A stretch of 64,000 bases of DNA from Methylophilaceae bacterium LSUCC0401 (GTDB lineage: Bacteria; Pseudomonadota; Gammaproteobacteria; Burkholderiales; Methylophilaceae). Under the pieces are notes generated by a model. The model did not search any database and was not told the origin of the DNA. It was given only the letters and a program-made list of their open reading frames with translations. Position numbers and translations under genes: made by a program. Position 1 is the stretch's first letter, and every line of letters begins with the position of its first letter. The DNA lies in contig CP103442.1 in NCBI GenBank assembly GCA_024919035.1, positions 1 to 64,000 of the forward strand. The letters are read 5' to 3'. This document shows positions 47,170 to 55,858 of this stretch, in pieces.

Positions 47170-47553
47170 ATGGATGATGAGTTAATCAAAAAAATTGCCA
47201 TCAGTATCGAAACTGAATATGTTCCATCCCACTCTTCCGATGAGGACAATAAATATTTTTTTGCTTATGCGGTAACAATAAAAAATCAATCAGCCATTAA
47301 TGTCCAGCTTTTATCTCGGCATTGGAAGATTGTAAATTCCAATGGAGCGGAGAAAAGTATTGAAGGTATCGGAGTCGTCGGCGAGCAACCAATCATCTAC
47401 TCAGGGGAGGATTACACTTATACGAGTGCAACAGAAATTGATACTCCTGTGGGCCATATGTATGGGGTCTACTCCATGGAAACTGAATACGGAGAAAGGT
47501 TTGATGCAGAAATTCCAAAGTTTCATTTAATCATGCCAAGGAATTTACATTGA
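47170..47553 (+). CDS. apaG: ApaG protein
   Basis: A 127 aa protein of the ApaG/DUF525 family (fibronectin-like fold). Signatures are YFFAYAVTIKNQS, LLSRHWKIVNSNG, GVVGEQPIIYSGEDYTYTS and HMYGVYSMETEYGE. Its biochemical role is unclear; it has been linked to cobalt/magnesium phenotypes and to diadenosine tetraphosphate metabolism. It follows thiG by one base and overlaps mltA by four. Confidence 0.92.
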   Translation: MDDELIKKIAISIETEYVPSHSSDEDNKYFFAYAVTIKNQSAINVQLLSRHWKIVNSNGAEKSIEGIGVVGEQPIIYSGEDYTYTSATEIDTPVGHMYGVYSMETEYGERFDAEIPKFHLIMPRNLH

Positions 47554-48809
47554 AAAAAATTTGGCTTGGTTTATTTTGTTTGACTCTTTTTTTATTGGTG
47601 GGCTGTGCCCCCAATAAAATGAATATGGAAGATTGCAAGTGTGAAGATCAACCAGAAGCAAAAACTAAAATAGAAGAAAAAACCCAAGAATGTAATGTTG
47701 TTGAAGTTAAAGAAATTGATAAGGATAATGAAAACTTTATACCCTATAGCCAGCTTCGCGAGTCTGGGTGGTATGAAGTAGAGTTTATTCTAAATCAAGA
47801 CGATCTCTCGGCAGCATGGCCTGCATGGATAAATAGTTGCACAACACTGATTCATCAAAAACCCTGGAAAAAAGCATGTAGCGCAGCTAATTCATTGGGG
47901 TCAGCGTCAAGCGAAGAGATTCAAAATTATCTGAAAACACACTTTACCCTTTATAAGTCATGGAAGGATGATGGAGCTGATACGGGTTTAATAACTGGAT
48001 ATTATCAACCGATCCTCAAAGGGAGTCGGACGCCTTCTAAAAAATATTCAACACCCATCTACAAAACCCCTGTTGATTTGATCACCGTAGACCTATCTGA
48101 ACTTTATCCTGAAATGAAGTTTAAAAGACTTCGGGGCAAAGTTGAGGGAAATAAATTATTACCTTATTTCTCTCGAGAAGAGATTTCATCAAATGAGAAC
48201 TTATTGAAGGGCAATGAATTATTTTGGGTGGATAATGCTGTAGAGGCTTTCTTTCTTGAGATTCAAGGTTCGGGAATTATTGAGTTAGAAGACGGAAGTA
48301 AAATTCCAATTGGTTATGCAGATCAAAACGGTCACCCCTATCGATCTATGGGAAGAGCCCTAATTAATGCTGGAGAACTAACAAAAGACACAGCATCAAT
48401 GCAAAGTATTAAAGCATGGGCTAATAAAAATAAGAAAAAATTAAAAGCTTTCTTAGATAAAAATCCAAGCTTTGTTTTTTTTAGGGAGCTGGAGAGTGGT
48501 TTAGCTGGACCAATTGGTGCTCAAGGGGTTCCTATTATCGCTGAGAGATCCATTGCCATTGATCGTAAATATATTCCCATGGGAGCTCCGGTATTGTTGG
48601 CAACCACTTTTCCCAATTCAACAAATACTTTAAATCGTCTGGTCATTGCCCAAGATACCGGGGGGGCCATTCGAGGACCCATAAGAGCAGATTATTATTG
48701 GGGATCTGGTCCTGAAGCTGGAGCAAAAGCGGGAGCCATGAAACAACAAGGAAATATCTGGGTATTACTCCCTAAAGAATTTAAATTGAATAAAAAAAAG
48801 GAGCAGTAA
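47550..48809 (+). CDS. mltA: Membrane-bound lytic murein transglycosylase A
   Basis: MltA cleaves peptidoglycan to 1,6-anhydromuropeptides. The 419 aa lipoprotein has the signal MKKIWLGLFCLTLFLLVGC with lipobox cysteine at 19. The MltA domain contains LITGYYQPILKGSR, FFLEIQGSG, MGRALINAG and the C-terminal 3D domain with the catalytic aspartate in VIAQDTGGAI and GPIRADYYWG. It starts within the apaG stop. A strong bidirectional terminator overlaps the end. Confidence 0.95.
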   Translation: MKKIWLGLFCLTLFLLVGCAPNKMNMEDCKCEDQPEAKTKIEEKTQECNVVEVKEIDKDNENFIPYSQLRESGWYEVEFILNQDDLSAAWPAWINSCTTLIHQKPWKKACSAANSLGSASSEEIQNYLKTHFTLYKSWKDDGADTGLITGYYQPILKGSRTPSKKYSTPIYKTPVDLITVDLSELYPEMKFKRLRGKVEGNKLLPYFSREEISSNENLLKGNELFWVDNAVEAFFLEIQGSGIIELEDGSKIPIGYADQNGHPYRSMGRALINAGELTKDTASMQSIKAWANKNKKKLKAFLDKNPSFVFFRELESGLAGPIGAQGVPIIAERSIAIDRKYIPMGAPVLLATTFPNSTNTLNRLVIAQDTGGAIRGPIRADYYWGSGPEAGAKAGAMKQQGNIWVLLPKEFKLNKKKEQ

Positions 48810-48822
48810 GCTCCTTTTTTTT
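48792..48822. terminator. Bidirectional intrinsic terminator between mltA and pqqA
   Basis: A(8)GGAGC at 48792-48804, loop AGTAA, then GCTCCT(8) at 48810-48822, a perfect 13 bp arm on each side. Read from either strand the GC core is followed by a run of eight T. It ends mltA (plus) and pqqA (minus), which converge. Confidence 0.85.
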
Positions 48823-48835
48823 AAGTAAACAATAA

Positions 48836-48907
48836 TTACTTATTGCATACGTACATTGTTACTTCAAAACCGAAACGCATTTCAGTTGCAGCAGGTGTTG
48901 TCCACAT
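48836..48907 (-). CDS. pqqA: Pyrroloquinoline quinone precursor peptide PqqA
   Basis: PqqA is the ribosomal precursor whose Glu and Tyr become PQQ, the cofactor of methanol dehydrogenase. The 23-residue peptide starts MWTTPAATEMRF and ends GFEVTMYVCNK. The conserved E-V-T-M-Y core (Glu15, Tyr19) is complete. AGGAGA lies seven bases before the ATG, a strong RBS. It is too short for usual gene finders. No pqqB, C, D or E is in the window. The bidirectional terminator follows directly, so it is a monocistronic transcript. Confidence 0.9.
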   Translation of the reverse strand: MWTTPAATEMRFGFEVTMYVCNK

Positions 48908-49011
48908 AATGAGATCTCCTTTCGTATAAATTCTGCCTAAGCAGTACACATACTCTACTTAAATAAATGATTATCCTGATATTGAAATCGATGAATTAAA
49001 CCTCATGATTT

Positions 49012-51207
49012 TCATGATAGTTTTTTTAATATTTTTTTTCGTAAACGTTTGCTGTTAACAAATACATCATATTTTACCAATTGAAGTTTAGTAAAAAAGC
49101 TGGGTTTTTTATTATTTAGGGCAAAATAATGTTTTAAAAAAATATTTCGTATTTCCCAATCAAATTTATTGAGGAGGCGAACAACGTCTTTCATGCGTTG
49201 GGTTTTTCGAGTTTTATAATTTAAACTGCTGTTGAAGTTTTTAACACGACCCGTATCAATTAACTCAAAATGAAAATTATTGTTCTCAATCAACATGAGG
49301 ATATTTCCAGCAGAAAGATCATTAAAAAATACACCGCGACTATGCATCTTATTGATAAATTCAGCACATTGCTCAAAAATTTGCCTCATGGTAAAACCTT
49401 TAAAAATGACATCATTTTTAAAATGCAAAGCAAGGTCATTAAAACTATAACCTTCCTTGTATAAAGAAATATAATAATTTTCTAATGAGGAAGGATCATG
49501 CTTCTTGTTGAATACGGCAATGGGTTTGGCAGCATTAATCCCCTTGGATAACAGTATATGAGTTCCATTCCAAGCTCTTAAGGATTTATTCGGACGATTC
49601 CTATCTAAAAATCTCTTGTGCCTATAAATAGACATTGGTTTTTTAATGACCACCTTTCCGAAATTTGGAATATCCTTGATCCACACCGCATTTCTTGATT
49701 TACGTAAGGATTGATCTTTATCTGGAGGTAAAAGAGTATCAGGATGACAGTATTTTAAAATTAATTTGTAAGTTTCAATATCTTTTGCCTGGGTAATACC
49801 AGACCAGTATTCATCGTGCAGAAAATAAAATTTTTCTTTACTTTGTTCTACAAATGCATGGGGATAAATAAATGGTTTTTGTATTAGACTGGGCCGTGAT
49901 TCCTTTGGCCAAAATAAATAAATAGGATCATCATTAATCGATGTAGGTTGATTTATATTATTTCCATACTTATCTTTTGATATCGCTGTATTGAGTTGAT
50001 TGATATGATAGAACTTTTGAATATCAGCAATGTAATTATTTTGCGTCCAAGCTATATGAAATGTTTCTGTATCGGATTCAAATTCTAAAATTTGAATCGC
50101 CGGGTTGTCTGAGTAACTTTTAATAAATGTTGATCCAGGAACAGTTTGATTAAAAAATTGCAGAGCCCTAAAAGATTGGGTGATGTGATAATTTGACACA
50201 TACCCTTTAGCCTCAGGATAAAAGGTTACTTGTTCAATTTGTGGGTACTCAGGCTCGTTGAGCCCATTATGAATTAATCCCTCTCGATGACAGATCAGGG
50301 CACCCCAGAAGGCTTTCTCAAAATTTCCTTTGGCTGCTAGCATAACAAAGTATCGTGTTATGTATTTTGCACGTTGTTGCTCAGGCTGGTCTTTTAATCT
50401 GCCAATACGCTTTATACTCCAAAAAGAGCAGGGCGATATTATGCCCTTGATATTAAATTCTTGAGCCAAAAATTTATAAACAGCTGATTTTTTATACAGG
50501 TCAAATTTAAAACATTGAGGAAATTTTCTTATAAAAACACGAGGATCATAAGGTTCAGGCTGGATAGTTCTCTCAGCAAACATATTGTTTGATAGTAAAT
50601 CTGGAAGTTGATGCTTTGATTGTAAACTTTTTAAAATTCCAAAATTAACAAAGGGCTCAAAGTCGGTCACATTGGGACCCATGATTTTTCGATTTTTAAT
50701 TCGACATACATTAAATGCAACACTCCAGAGTTTATAAAATCCCTGATAAGAAATTCGGGTCCATGATTGTCGATTGATTGTGCTACCAATTTCAACCATG
50801 AATTTGATTTCTTTAAATTCATTAAGCAGTTTCTCTACAAAATTTTTCCAAACCAAAATACCATGTTCTGTGGTGATCGAGCTTGCATCTTTGATTGGAG
50901 GGCTGATATTTATAATAAGGTTGCCATCAAAATCTTTTAATTTTTTTAATAAGCGTGATTTGTGATTGTTAAAATCAGTGTAAGTGAAATAGATTCTTAA
51001 ATTTTTAACACCTAACTCATGAATGCGATCAAAAATATAGTCATCTGTTTCTAATTCATCATTGCTGGCAATATTGATGCCAATAAAATCTTCAGGCACC
51101 CGATGAGAGCGGTTTGGTAACTCTTGATGCTTGATGCCTGAGTTGAAATAAAAAAATAAGTATTCGGCTAAGTATTTTAAATTCACTAAAGTGTCATTCA
51201 TTTTCAT
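49012..51207 (-). CDS. Glycosidase-like domain fused to LPS-kinase-like (InaA/WaaP family) domain
   Basis: A 731 aa protein with two parts. Residues about 30-350 resemble a glycosidase TIM barrel (FIGINIASNDEL, HELGVKNLRIYFTY, LIINISPP, KFMVEIGSTINRQSW), but the usual acid/base NE dyad after the EIG strand is replaced by ST, so it may be inactive or divergent. Residues about 500-731 are an LPS kinase-like domain: ATP lysine about K522 (VVIKKP), RAWNGTHILLSKGI, catalytic H622-x7-D630-x4-N635 (FFNDLSAGNILM) and D651 (LIDTG). It begins within the stop of the LTA-synthase-like gene. It is probably cytoplasmic, since no signal peptide is seen. Confidence 0.7.
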   Translation of the reverse strand: MKMNDTLVNLKYLAEYLFFYFNSGIKHQELPNRSHRVPEDFIGINIASNDELETDDYIFDRIHELGVKNLRIYFTYTDFNNHKSRLLKKLKDFDGNLIINISPPIKDASSITTEHGILVWKNFVEKLLNEFKEIKFMVEIGSTINRQSWTRISYQGFYKLWSVAFNVCRIKNRKIMGPNVTDFEPFVNFGILKSLQSKHQLPDLLSNNMFAERTIQPEPYDPRVFIRKFPQCFKFDLYKKSAVYKFLAQEFNIKGIISPCSFWSIKRIGRLKDQPEQQRAKYITRYFVMLAAKGNFEKAFWGALICHREGLIHNGLNEPEYPQIEQVTFYPEAKGYVSNYHITQSFRALQFFNQTVPGSTFIKSYSDNPAIQILEFESDTETFHIAWTQNNYIADIQKFYHINQLNTAISKDKYGNNINQPTSINDDPIYLFWPKESRPSLIQKPFIYPHAFVEQSKEKFYFLHDEYWSGITQAKDIETYKLILKYCHPDTLLPPDKDQSLRKSRNAVWIKDIPNFGKVVIKKPMSIYRHKRFLDRNRPNKSLRAWNGTHILLSKGINAAKPIAVFNKKHDPSSLENYYISLYKEGYSFNDLALHFKNDVIFKGFTMRQIFEQCAEFINKMHSRGVFFNDLSAGNILMLIENNNFHFELIDTGRVKNFNSSLNYKTRKTQRMKDVVRLLNKFDWEIRNIFLKHYFALNNKKPSFFTKLQLVKYDVFVNSKRLRKKILKKLS

Positions 51208-53108
51208 TGTGGGGGTAATTTATATAAACGTTCACTGTATAAAATGCTGGGCAATATGGCATATGCTAATGGCCTCTCAATACTTTCTGAGGTATTTTTA
51301 TTTTCAATAATTTCATAGGTATCAAAGTTATATTTGCCGTAAAACACTTGTTGATTAGGCTGTAAAACATATAACCGCTCTTTTTCCATCCATGCAAAGT
51401 TGTCATAATATTGCATCATTGCCCGACCTTGATAATTATTATCGATTTGGCTCATGTCTTGACCGATCATGGGATGATATCCTTGAATTCCAGCCAGCGA
51501 TAAGAGGGTGACGGGTAAGTCAATTTGACTGGTAATCTGATTGAGCACTTGAGGTTTAATTCCCCCGCCAACAATTAAGCCAGGAATGTGGAAATTTTTA
51601 ATGGGGATTAAATGATCCCCTCTGACCCTGATGTCATGATCAGCGACGATCAGAAAAATTGTATCCTGCCAATAGTCTGATTGTTTGGCTTTGTGAATAA
51701 ACTCACCCAAGGCATGGTCGGCATACTTAACCGCATTTTTTTCTGTTGCCTGCGGCTCTTCATAAAGCTGGATAACATTTTCAGGAAATTCAAAGGGAGC
51801 ATGATTTGAAGAGGTGAAGACTAAGCTAAAAAATGGCTGGCCTTCTTTATGATATTGACTGAATTGTTGATGGGCTTTTTGATATAAGTCTTGATCTGAT
51901 GCGCCCCAGCTTCCTTTAAATATAGGATTCTCAAAATCTTTTTGTTCGATGATCGTTTTAAAACCATTCCCGGTAAAAAAATTTCTCATATTATCAAAAT
52001 GAGCTTCGCCTCCATAAATAAAACTGGTTGCATAATCTTTTTTTTCGAGCAACGATGCGAGAGTAAAGAAATTGGTTTGTGATAATGGCAGCTTGACAGT
52101 GCTCTGAGCCGGTGTGGGTGGAAAGCCTGAAACAACAGCCTCAATTCCCCTCACTGATCGTGTTCCCGTAGCATAAAGTTGATTAAACCAAATACCCTCA
52201 TGTTTTAATTGTTCAAGATTGGGGGTGACCGGCGCTCCTCCAAGGGACTCAACAAAGGTCGCACCCAGACTTTCTTGAAGAAGTATCACAATATTTTTCG
52301 GTTTCCCCTTATAGCTTGGATTAAGAATTTTTTTAGTGGGGAACTCTGCCGGTCCGGTTTGACCTGTTAATTCAAAGATCTTTTCTTTTTCCATCTTGCC
52401 ATAAATCTTTGCCGCTGATGCTTCATGCTTCATGCTATAGGCTGCATAGAGGACGGTGTAGGGAGAGTTGAGTACTAGAGAATTGACCATGGCATTTTCG
52501 GTGAGAGCAAACATTGCTGGATTAGCAGGGCGATGTCCCAATGAGGAGCGGATGGTGATTAACATTATTAATAGGATGAGGGGCCATAAATAGAAGTGGG
52601 TGGGTTTATATTGAGGTGTATATTTTTTAGTAAAAATTTTAAAAATAAAATAACTCATAAAGCTCACAAATAAAACTACTCCGATGACGTCAACTGTAAA
52701 ACCTTTGAACAGCATTTTAAAAACTTCACGCGGATATTTAAGGTATTCAATGAATAAGATATTTGGACGGGTATTGTACTCATGAATAAAGGTGATTGAA
52801 CAAGCTTCAATAATTACCAAGAGGATGAAACTGATCACAATCCAATATTGCGTGAAATTTTGATAAAAAGAAGATAAGTTTTTATGAATTAGATTGGCCG
52901 GAAATAGCAGCATGGGAATGAGTAACATGAAACCCAGCTGCATCAAGTCCACCCTCACCCCTTGAAGAAAAATATTCATGAGTTGATCGGTGGCAAGCAC
53001 AGCATCAATTTGCCAAAGAATAAGCATGAGCCTGGATAGCGAGAAAAAAATTAACCCCAGGAAATAAGCTTTTATAAAAACTTGATAGGGATTGTGATTG
53101 CGTAACAT
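51204..53108 (-). CDS. LTA synthase-family membrane phosphotransferase
   Basis: A 634 aa protein with five N-terminal membrane helices and a periplasmic sulfatase-fold domain (from about 250). Motifs are VILLQESLGATFVESLGG, LYATGTRSVRGIEAV with the candidate nucleophile threonine, FSLVFTSSNHAPFEFP and LIVADHDIRVRGDHLIPI. These match the LtaS/OpgB family that transfers phosphoglycerol from phosphatidylglycerol or similar groups. The target here is unknown: LPS, periplasmic glucan or other glycan. The downstream kinase-fusion gene overlaps its stop by four bases (ATGA). Confidence 0.85.
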   Translation of the reverse strand: MLRNHNPYQVFIKAYFLGLIFFSLSRLMLILWQIDAVLATDQLMNIFLQGVRVDLMQLGFMLLIPMLLFPANLIHKNLSSFYQNFTQYWIVISFILLVIIEACSITFIHEYNTRPNILFIEYLKYPREVFKMLFKGFTVDVIGVVLFVSFMSYFIFKIFTKKYTPQYKPTHFYLWPLILLIMLITIRSSLGHRPANPAMFALTENAMVNSLVLNSPYTVLYAAYSMKHEASAAKIYGKMEKEKIFELTGQTGPAEFPTKKILNPSYKGKPKNIVILLQESLGATFVESLGGAPVTPNLEQLKHEGIWFNQLYATGTRSVRGIEAVVSGFPPTPAQSTVKLPLSQTNFFTLASLLEKKDYATSFIYGGEAHFDNMRNFFTGNGFKTIIEQKDFENPIFKGSWGASDQDLYQKAHQQFSQYHKEGQPFFSLVFTSSNHAPFEFPENVIQLYEEPQATEKNAVKYADHALGEFIHKAKQSDYWQDTIFLIVADHDIRVRGDHLIPIKNFHIPGLIVGGGIKPQVLNQITSQIDLPVTLLSLAGIQGYHPMIGQDMSQIDNNYQGRAMMQYYDNFAWMEKERLYVLQPNQQVFYGKYNFDTYEIIENKNTSESIERPLAYAILPSILYSERLYKLPPQ

Positions 53109-53163
53109 TTAAATTAAATATTCATATAGTTTTATCGAATTATACTTAACTTTAAAAGGAACA

Positions 53164-53196
53164 ATAAAAAAAGGGTGTATTTTCATACACCCTTTT
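53164..53196 (-). terminator. Intrinsic terminator after amt
   Basis: GGGTGTA (53173-53179) and TACACCC (53186-53192) with flanking A/T pairs form a stem with a 6-base loop. On the minus strand it is followed by seven T. It ends the porin-glnK-amt operon before the next gene on the same strand. Confidence 0.8.
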
Positions 53197-53236
53197 ATGG
53201 ATCACTAAGACTACTTTTATAGAGAGGAGAAGTATC

Positions 53237-54643
53237 TTAGTTGCGGTAAGCAGTTTCTCCATGTGATGAGGTATCAAGACCAGACACTTCATCTTCTTCA
53301 GAAACTCGTAGACCAATAACAGCATCGACGATTTTGAAAAGGATGTAGCTGATCACACCACACCAAACAATGGTAAAGAGAACTGATTTGGTTTGAACCC
53401 ATAACTGACTCATCATGGTAAATCCTTCATCGTAGCCAACGCCACCGAATTGAGGAGCCATAAAGATTGCTAGGCCAATCGCGCCAATAATTCCAGCGAC
53501 ACCATGGATCCCGAATACATCGAGGGAGTCATCGTAACCAAACGCATTTTTAAGTGAGCTACAAGCCCAGAAGCTAATGATACTGGCGATGAAGCCAAGG
53601 ACAATTGCACCTACAGGACCAAGAACAGCACATGCTGGGGTAATAGCAACCAATCCAGCAATCGCTCCTGATGCGCCACCTAACATAGACGGCTTACCTT
53701 TAGCTGCCCACTCGATTGCCAACCAACCTAAAACTGCAGCTGCTGTAGCGGCTTGTGTGTTAATCATTACCAGACCAGCTGTTCCATCTGCAGCTAATTC
53801 ACTACCTACGTTAAAGCCGAACCAGCCTGCCCAGAGCAGTGATGCACCAATCATAGTCATGGGTAAGTTGTGAGGAGCCATAGCTACTTTACCAAGTCCA
53901 ACACGTTTACCAATAACGATCGCACCAACAAGAGCAGCAATCCCTGCATTAATATGAACCACTGTACCGCCGGCAAAGTCAACTGCACCCCACTCACCGA
54001 TCATGCCACCGCCCCACACCATGTGGCATATTGGTAGGTACACTAAGGTTAACCATAAAGGCATAAATAGCAGTAAGGCTGAAAATTTAATTCGTTCAGC
54101 GAATGCACCTACAATAAGTGCCGGTGTTAATGCGGCAAAGGTAAGCTGGAAAGTCACGAATACAAATTCAGGAATCGTGTCAGATAAGGAATCAGCTGTA
54201 ATGCCATTTAAGAAAACAGACCCTAATCCACCAATATAGGCATTCCAATCGCCGCCATCTCCAAACGCTAAACTGTAGCCATAAAATACCCATAGCACAG
54301 ACATGAGTGAGAAGGTCACAAACACTTGCATGAGCACGGATAACATATTCTTGGCTCTAACTAAGCCACCATAGAATAAAGCTAACCCTGGAATCGCCAT
54401 GACAATTACTAAAATGGTCGCGACAATCATCCATGCCGTGTCTCCGGTATCGAGAGTTGCTTCTTCAGCAGCTTCCTCTGCAGCCACTGCATCAGCATCC
54501 GTTGCACCATCGTCCATCTCAGCCACAAGATAAGAATTGTCAGTGAAGTTACTTAAGGCATCAGCCATGCTGATATTTGTGAAACCCATTAGGAATAAGC
54601 TGATAAGTCCAACCACACCTAATTTAGATAATATTTTTTTCAT
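53237..54643 (-). CDS. amt: Ammonium transporter
   Basis: Amt takes up ammonium. From ATG 54643 it is 468 aa, with AAGGAGA five bases upstream (the frame is open to 54679 but without an RBS). An N-terminal signal-like segment and an acidic, Ala-rich stretch (DDGATDADAVAAEEAAEE) precede eleven helices. Landmarks are ALFYGGLVRAKNMLSVLMQ, DFAGGTVVHINAG, and GIHGVAGIIGA near the end with the pore histidine. Cotranscribed with glnK, which regulates it by binding. Confidence 0.96.
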   Translation of the reverse strand: MKKILSKLGVVGLISLFLMGFTNISMADALSNFTDNSYLVAEMDDGATDADAVAAEEAAEEATLDTGDTAWMIVATILVIVMAIPGLALFYGGLVRAKNMLSVLMQVFVTFSLMSVLWVFYGYSLAFGDGGDWNAYIGGLGSVFLNGITADSLSDTIPEFVFVTFQLTFAALTPALIVGAFAERIKFSALLLFMPLWLTLVYLPICHMVWGGGMIGEWGAVDFAGGTVVHINAGIAALVGAIVIGKRVGLGKVAMAPHNLPMTMIGASLLWAGWFGFNVGSELAADGTAGLVMINTQAATAAAVLGWLAIEWAAKGKPSMLGGASGAIAGLVAITPACAVLGPVGAIVLGFIASIISFWACSSLKNAFGYDDSLDVFGIHGVAGIIGAIGLAIFMAPQFGGVGYDEGFTMMSQLWVQTKSVLFTIVWCGVISYILFKIVDAVIGLRVSEEDEVSGLDTSSHGETAYRN

Positions 54644-54653
54644 ACTGATCTCC

Positions 54654-55858
<1,205 letters not shown>

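Follow-up and report, generated by a model that had tools for sequence, protein, structure and literature searches.

A predicted PslG-type barrel lacking both catalytic glutamates, fused to a WaaP-like kinase and encoded with an LtaS/OpgB-like transferase in Methylophilaceae

PslG of Pseudomonas aeruginosa, whose structure has been solved (5BX9, 4ZN2 and, with a bound pentasaccharide, 9G17), is an endoglycosidase resembling glycoside hydrolase family 39 (GH39). This hydrolase is intracellular, its activity is important in making the exopolysaccharide Psl, and its catalysis requires E165 and E276 (PMC9075953). WaaP/RfaP, the heptose(I) kinase of the lipopolysaccharide (LPS) core (6DFL), and KdkA, the kinase of 3-deoxy-D-manno-octulosonic acid (Kdo), have in common the kinase fold of PF06293 and its Lys/Asp/Asn/Asp set. 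A hydrophobic N-terminus followed by a PF00884 domain is shared by VP1736 of Vibrio parahaemolyticus (3LXQ), which itself carries the label uncharacterised, and the phosphoglycerol transferases LtaS, LtaP and OpgB. Klotho, an animal receptor protein with a GH1 fold, lacks the full catalytic pair of a glycosidase and is used as a binding module. Here we describe a pair of genes of Methylophilaceae bacterium LSUCC0401, located in bases 1-64000 (the window) of CP103442.1, a complete, single-contig genome of 1.31 Mb that, to judge by its size, gene content and relatives, is probably of the OM43 type. One gene encodes a 731 aa protein in which a PslG-type barrel is followed by a WaaP-type kinase domain (the fusion), and the other a 634 aa membrane protein with an LtaS/OpgB-like transferase domain (the partner). 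The parts themselves are known, and it is their architecture that is new: literature searches for the fusion architecture or for VP1736 found nothing, and we know of no described LPS-core kinase with a glycosidase-fold substrate module. The coordinates of all features are given in Table 1.

The fold of the N-terminal part was examined in an AlphaFold2 model with a predicted local distance difference test score (pLDDT) of 89.6 and a predicted template modelling score (pTM) of 0.89 for the full-length protein and 0.91 for the barrel alone. VIA-align superposed the barrel on GH39 structure 5JVK with a Z score of 30.7 (353 residues, 3.1 A), and placed residues 29-434 on residues 33-442 of PslG (5bx9) with a Z score of 28.4, which is nearly the whole of PslG. 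Foldseek likewise placed the barrel with PslG-type glycosidases (8e-15). Residues 29-434 thus have the (beta/alpha)8 barrel and C-terminal beta-sandwich that define the GH39 fold, and Pfam gave no meaningful match either for this part or for the barrels of 33 homologues. A first interpretation made from the DNA alone (the sequence-only reading) had proposed a TIM-barrel-like glycosidase part and had considered that the region might match a non-glycosidase family; the structure search of the barrel gave GH39/PslG instead. Judged from the model, the fold of the protein is nearly settled: a GH39/PslG barrel plus beta-sandwich, followed by a WaaP-type kinase.

The two glutamates of active GH39/PslG enzymes, the acid/base at the end of strand 4 and the nucleophile at the end of strand 7, are both absent from this barrel. 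After predicted strand 4 (residues 137-140) the protein has G141-S142-T143-I144-N145 where glycosidases have W-N-E-P-N; all 35 aligned homologues share T143, and S142 is variable (S/N/A/T/M). The apparent replacement of the Asn-Glu dyad by Ser-Thr had already been noted in the sequence-only reading, which missed the loss of the second glutamate. A hidden Markov model (HMM) comparison with PslG sets the catalytic Glu of strand 7 at residue 260, which is Cys here and V, C, A, S, I, N or Y in homologues, with Glu in none of those aligned. The same register was given by a PslG-like sequence (locus L087) with an intact WATEWGW motif; hhalign with a single PslG-like sequence covered the strand 7-8 part only, at 5% probability and E 0.007, and was used for the register only. 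MAFFT addition or pairwise alignment of one PslG-like sequence misplaced the strand-4 motif in many rows, and these alignments were discarded. We therefore call the barrel a pseudo-glycosidase rather than a glycosidase, the register being set by HMM and hhalign for the nucleophile and by the predicted strand and the motif for the acid/base. The barrel differs from PslG in having no equivalents of E165 and E276, in being joined to a kinase and in lying outside an exopolysaccharide cluster in the loci read. Unlike Klotho, which has no kinase domain, it is bacterial and belongs to another GH family (GH39 fold).

The barrel has nevertheless kept a conserved pocket. Among its 41 invariant residues, 20 fall within the 64 positions that immediately follow a barrel strand (p 1e-5) and 0 within those that immediately precede one, so that conservation in the barrel is highest in the pocket-side loops and selection still acts on the pocket. 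In the barrel the ratio of non-synonymous to synonymous substitution rates (dN/dS) was 0.06-0.13, and in the kinase it was 0.07-0.12.

The C-terminal part was judged by Foldseek and HMM, because the VIA-align lists were filled by barrels. PF06293 (Kdo/WaaP) matched residues 542-657 with an E value of 1.4e-6 and 28.4 bits, against a Pfam cut-off of 21.3. When this part was searched separately, as had been advised at the outset, a profile built from the C-terminal regions of 33 homologues gave the LPS heptose kinase RfaP/WaaP (6DFL) as its best solved match (3.9e-7), and Foldseek matched the kinase part to 6dfl at 2.3e-7. The complete kinase core read earlier from the sequence (K522, D630, N635 and D651) is invariant in 33 of 33 full-length homologues aligned, and the catalytic set is intact. 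The fusion is distinguished from RfaP and KdkA by its N-terminal GH39-fold module and by scores far below the cut-offs of the NCBIfam equivalogs (13.9 bits versus 170 for RfaP and 25.7 versus 142 for KdkA). The source genome encodes three further Kdo/WaaP-family kinases, and of these four the fusion has the lowest score.

By hydropathy, the partner has about five hydrophobic segments between residues 10 and 191, followed by a sulfatase-fold domain (PF00884 at 271-541, E 1.3e-46), as had been proposed; this domain is presumed to be periplasmic. A close relative is VP1736 (3LXQ), matched with E 8e-146 over residues 192-629, the whole soluble domain, and more distant ones are LtaP (4uop, 1e-24) and LtaS. 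The partner thus has the PF00884 domain and transmembrane N-terminus of the OpgB/LtaS transferases, but it is far below their NCBIfam equivalog cut-offs (best 79 bits versus 572). The transferase is not special to the pair but part of a wider family that includes VP1736. A second transferase family, about 31% identical, is widespread in Methylophilaceae and also occurs in genomes that lack the fusion.

On the minus strand the 634 aa gene comes first and its stop overlaps the start of the 731 aa gene by the four bases ATGA; the coordinates and lengths given in the sequence-only reading were confirmed. Of 187 Methylophilaceae genomes, 84 encode the fusion at full or nearly full length; together with the dN/dS values above, this shows the pair and its two domains to be far more conserved than chance would allow. 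In other families it is rare: a class sample of 369 contained 4 genomes with the fusion, from two other families (Gammaproteobacteria), and a phylum sample of 299 yielded only G282, which is one of these; it was not found elsewhere in a sample of the same order, and the viral contigs searched contained no relative. A transferase orthologue (at least 49% identity) was present in 80 of the 84 fusion genomes and occurred alone in 0 of the 187. Three of the four fusion genomes without it are incomplete, and the fourth, G209, is not. The two genes are non-adjacent in 10 of the 80 genomes, belonging to three genera, and in G069 they lie about 265 kb apart on one contig; in G370, from another family, both are present on different contigs. 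The Fisher value for this co-occurrence (1e-48) takes no account of common descent and should not be read as the probability of independent events. The earlier claim that the two genes are a unit is thus borne out by the overlap and the co-retention, but an obligate partnership is not.

The pair forms a cassette (window 48809-53237) that is cleanly absent in several congeners, where the gene next to mltA is amtB or, in G174, lplT (loci L088-L095), so that it varies between close relatives within one streamlined genus. A different state was found in genus g43 (1.3 Mb genomes; L051-L053), which has a 399 aa barrel-only protein in the same syntenic place, between amtB and the MltA-like gene, and lacks both kinase and transferase. 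This protein carries IEIEMTSFT for VEIGSTINR, has Ser in place of D182 and E184 and has lost R146 and W149, and its dN/dS of 0.04-0.07 indicates purifying selection.

Some relatives of the fusion share the LPS-core gene neighbourhood of WaaP/RfaP. In the neighbourhoods described here, names of genes without a Pfam match were assigned by sequence recognition. In G032 (L049) the fusion is flanked by grpE and waaC, and waaG-like and WaaP-like genes come next; in G573 and G212 (L056, L057) it lies about 2-5 kb from waaC, hldE, gmhA-like and WaaP-family genes. An LPS-core locus near waaC holds the fusion in two genera of two families. In many other relatives the pair adjoins genes for an lplT-like protein of the major facilitator superfamily and an aas-like acyltransferase-ligase (for example L058 13458-17049), which suggests a link to phospholipid remodelling. 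The LPS-core locus of the source genome lies elsewhere and contains heptosyltransferase(s), a kinase fused to a family 2 glycosyltransferase (GT2), a second kinase and a carbamoyltransferase, with the third kinase at 444 kb. The GT2-kinase fusion is at L083 9097-10794 (G000:C1, about 319-321 kb), beside the second kinase, the carbamoyltransferase and heptosyltransferases. A sulfotransferase-family gene (PF03567; L056 8091-8684) lies just upstream of the fusion in G573.

Table 1. Positions in the window of the gene pair, its domains and residues, and the flanking genes
Feature	Position	Strand	Evidence
731 aa GH39-fold/LPS-kinase fusion protein	49012..51207	-	Open reading frame; AlphaFold2 model; full-length homologues in 84 Methylophilaceae genomes
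634 aa membrane protein, LtaS/OpgB-like transferase domain	51204..53108	-	PF00884; 3LXQ and 4uop matches; hydropathy
ATGA overlap of upstream (634 aa) stop and downstream (731 aa) start	51204..51207	-	Sequence
GH39/PslG-type (beta/alpha)8 barrel and beta-sandwich, residues 27-434	49906..51129	-	VIA-align; Foldseek
S142-T143, site of the glycosidase Asn-Glu acid/base dyad (strand 4 end), Glu absent	50779..50784	-	Alignment counts; strand 4 = 137-140
C260, site of the glycosidase nucleophile Glu (strand 7 end; PslG E276)	50428..50430	-	HMM register with PslG; PslG-like L087; counts
Kdo/WaaP-type kinase domain, residues ~500-720 (K522, D630, N635, D651)	49048..49710	-	PF06293; 6dfl by profile and Foldseek
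MltA-like flank, faces the pair; left edge of the variable cassette	47550..48809	+	Gene order same in relatives
Ammonium transporter amtB flank; right edge of the variable cassette	53237..54679	-	Pair absent beside amtB in congeners

We propose, with a probability of about 0.5, that the pseudo-glycosidase is a sugar-recognition module that steers an LPS-core kinase, and that the partner adds a phospho-group in the periplasm. The 731 aa protein would be a cytoplasmic, probably membrane-associated kinase; the barrel, like PslG, is presumed to lie on the cytoplasmic side, because the kinase to which it is joined requires ATP and the protein shows neither an export signal nor a membrane span. The GH39/PslG-type barrel would have lost glycosidase chemistry and may hold or select nascent lipid A-core, or a related lipid-linked glycan, and the WaaP-like kinase would then phosphorylate a core sugar. 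The translationally coupled inner-membrane enzyme of the LtaS/OpgB superfamily would act later on the same surface glycan in the periplasm, moving phosphoglycerol or phosphoethanolamine taken from phospholipid. The sequence-only reading had arrived at a surface-glycan phosphorylation unit, and structure prediction, the neighbourhood survey and co-occurrence support it; that the LPS core is the acceptor, that the barrel serves in binding and that phosphoglycerol is transferred are things we infer rather than observe. A related proposal, which we hold a little more tentatively, is that a PslG-type glycosidase became a non-cutting sugar reader fused to an LPS-core kinase and that the barrel alone also has a function of its own, because one streamlined genus has kept it without kinase and transferase.

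Several observations weigh against the scheme of a sugar-reading barrel that steers an LPS-core kinase. With three other Kdo/WaaP kinases in the genome, core phosphates may already be supplied. The retention of the barrel in g43 means that barrel and kinase are not inseparable, and purifying selection on the barrel-only protein makes its function seem separable from the kinase. A profile of the strand 2-5 stretch alone matched no glycosidase among solved structures, and the strand-4 register therefore rests on predicted structure and motif. E139, E212 and E218 are invariant in all homologues, and D182 and E184 in all fusions, which leaves room for a possible non-classical catalytic role. The barrel might accordingly be read as an active hydrolase or transglycosidase with relocated catalytic residues that trims or builds the glycan for the kinase. 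Such an enzyme would fit the strongly conserved pocket face, the invariant D182, E184, E212 and E218 at or near the ends of strands 5-6 of the fusions, and the intracellular activity of PslG in Psl production. We consider it unlikely, since both classical Glu sites are non-acidic in every aligned homologue, and the g43 barrel is under strong purifying selection although D182, E184, R146 and W149 have been replaced or lost.

The acceptor and the partnership can also be read differently. The relationship of the barrel to PslG, from the Psl pathway, and the position of the pair outside the LPS-core locus in most Methylophilaceae would suit a kinase acting on capsule, exopolysaccharide or its lipid-linked precursor, with a barrel descended from an exopolysaccharide pathway. 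In our judgement this has a low likelihood, because the kinase is closest to the LPS heptose kinase, core genes neighbour the fusion in two genera of two families, and no polysaccharide synthesis cluster lies beside the pair in the loci read. As to the partnership, common descent accounts for much of the co-occurrence, and both genes can be lost together, as shown by several congeners in which amtB or lplT lies right beside mltA; the fusion also stands without the partner in G209 and, outside the family, in G282, G212 and G573. These facts count against a joint function and would be expected of two envelope genes that work independently and have no more in common than an operon and a deletion-prone site. 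That explanation is nevertheless improbable, because the partner never occurs without the fusion in the 187 genomes, even when the 10 non-adjacent cases are included.

If the proposal of a barrel-guided LPS-core kinase is true, the fusion would be a bacterial pseudo-glycosidase with a clear, testable role, and the VP1736/3LXQ transferase family would gain a candidate role as the periplasmic partner of a kinase. Because the pair is present in some members of the streamlined genus and cleanly absent in others, it may mark variable surface chemistry, for example against phage, although the latter is only a suggestion. The proposal would also account for a conserved gene lacking an assigned function in the Methylophilaceae, a family of abundant methylotrophs.

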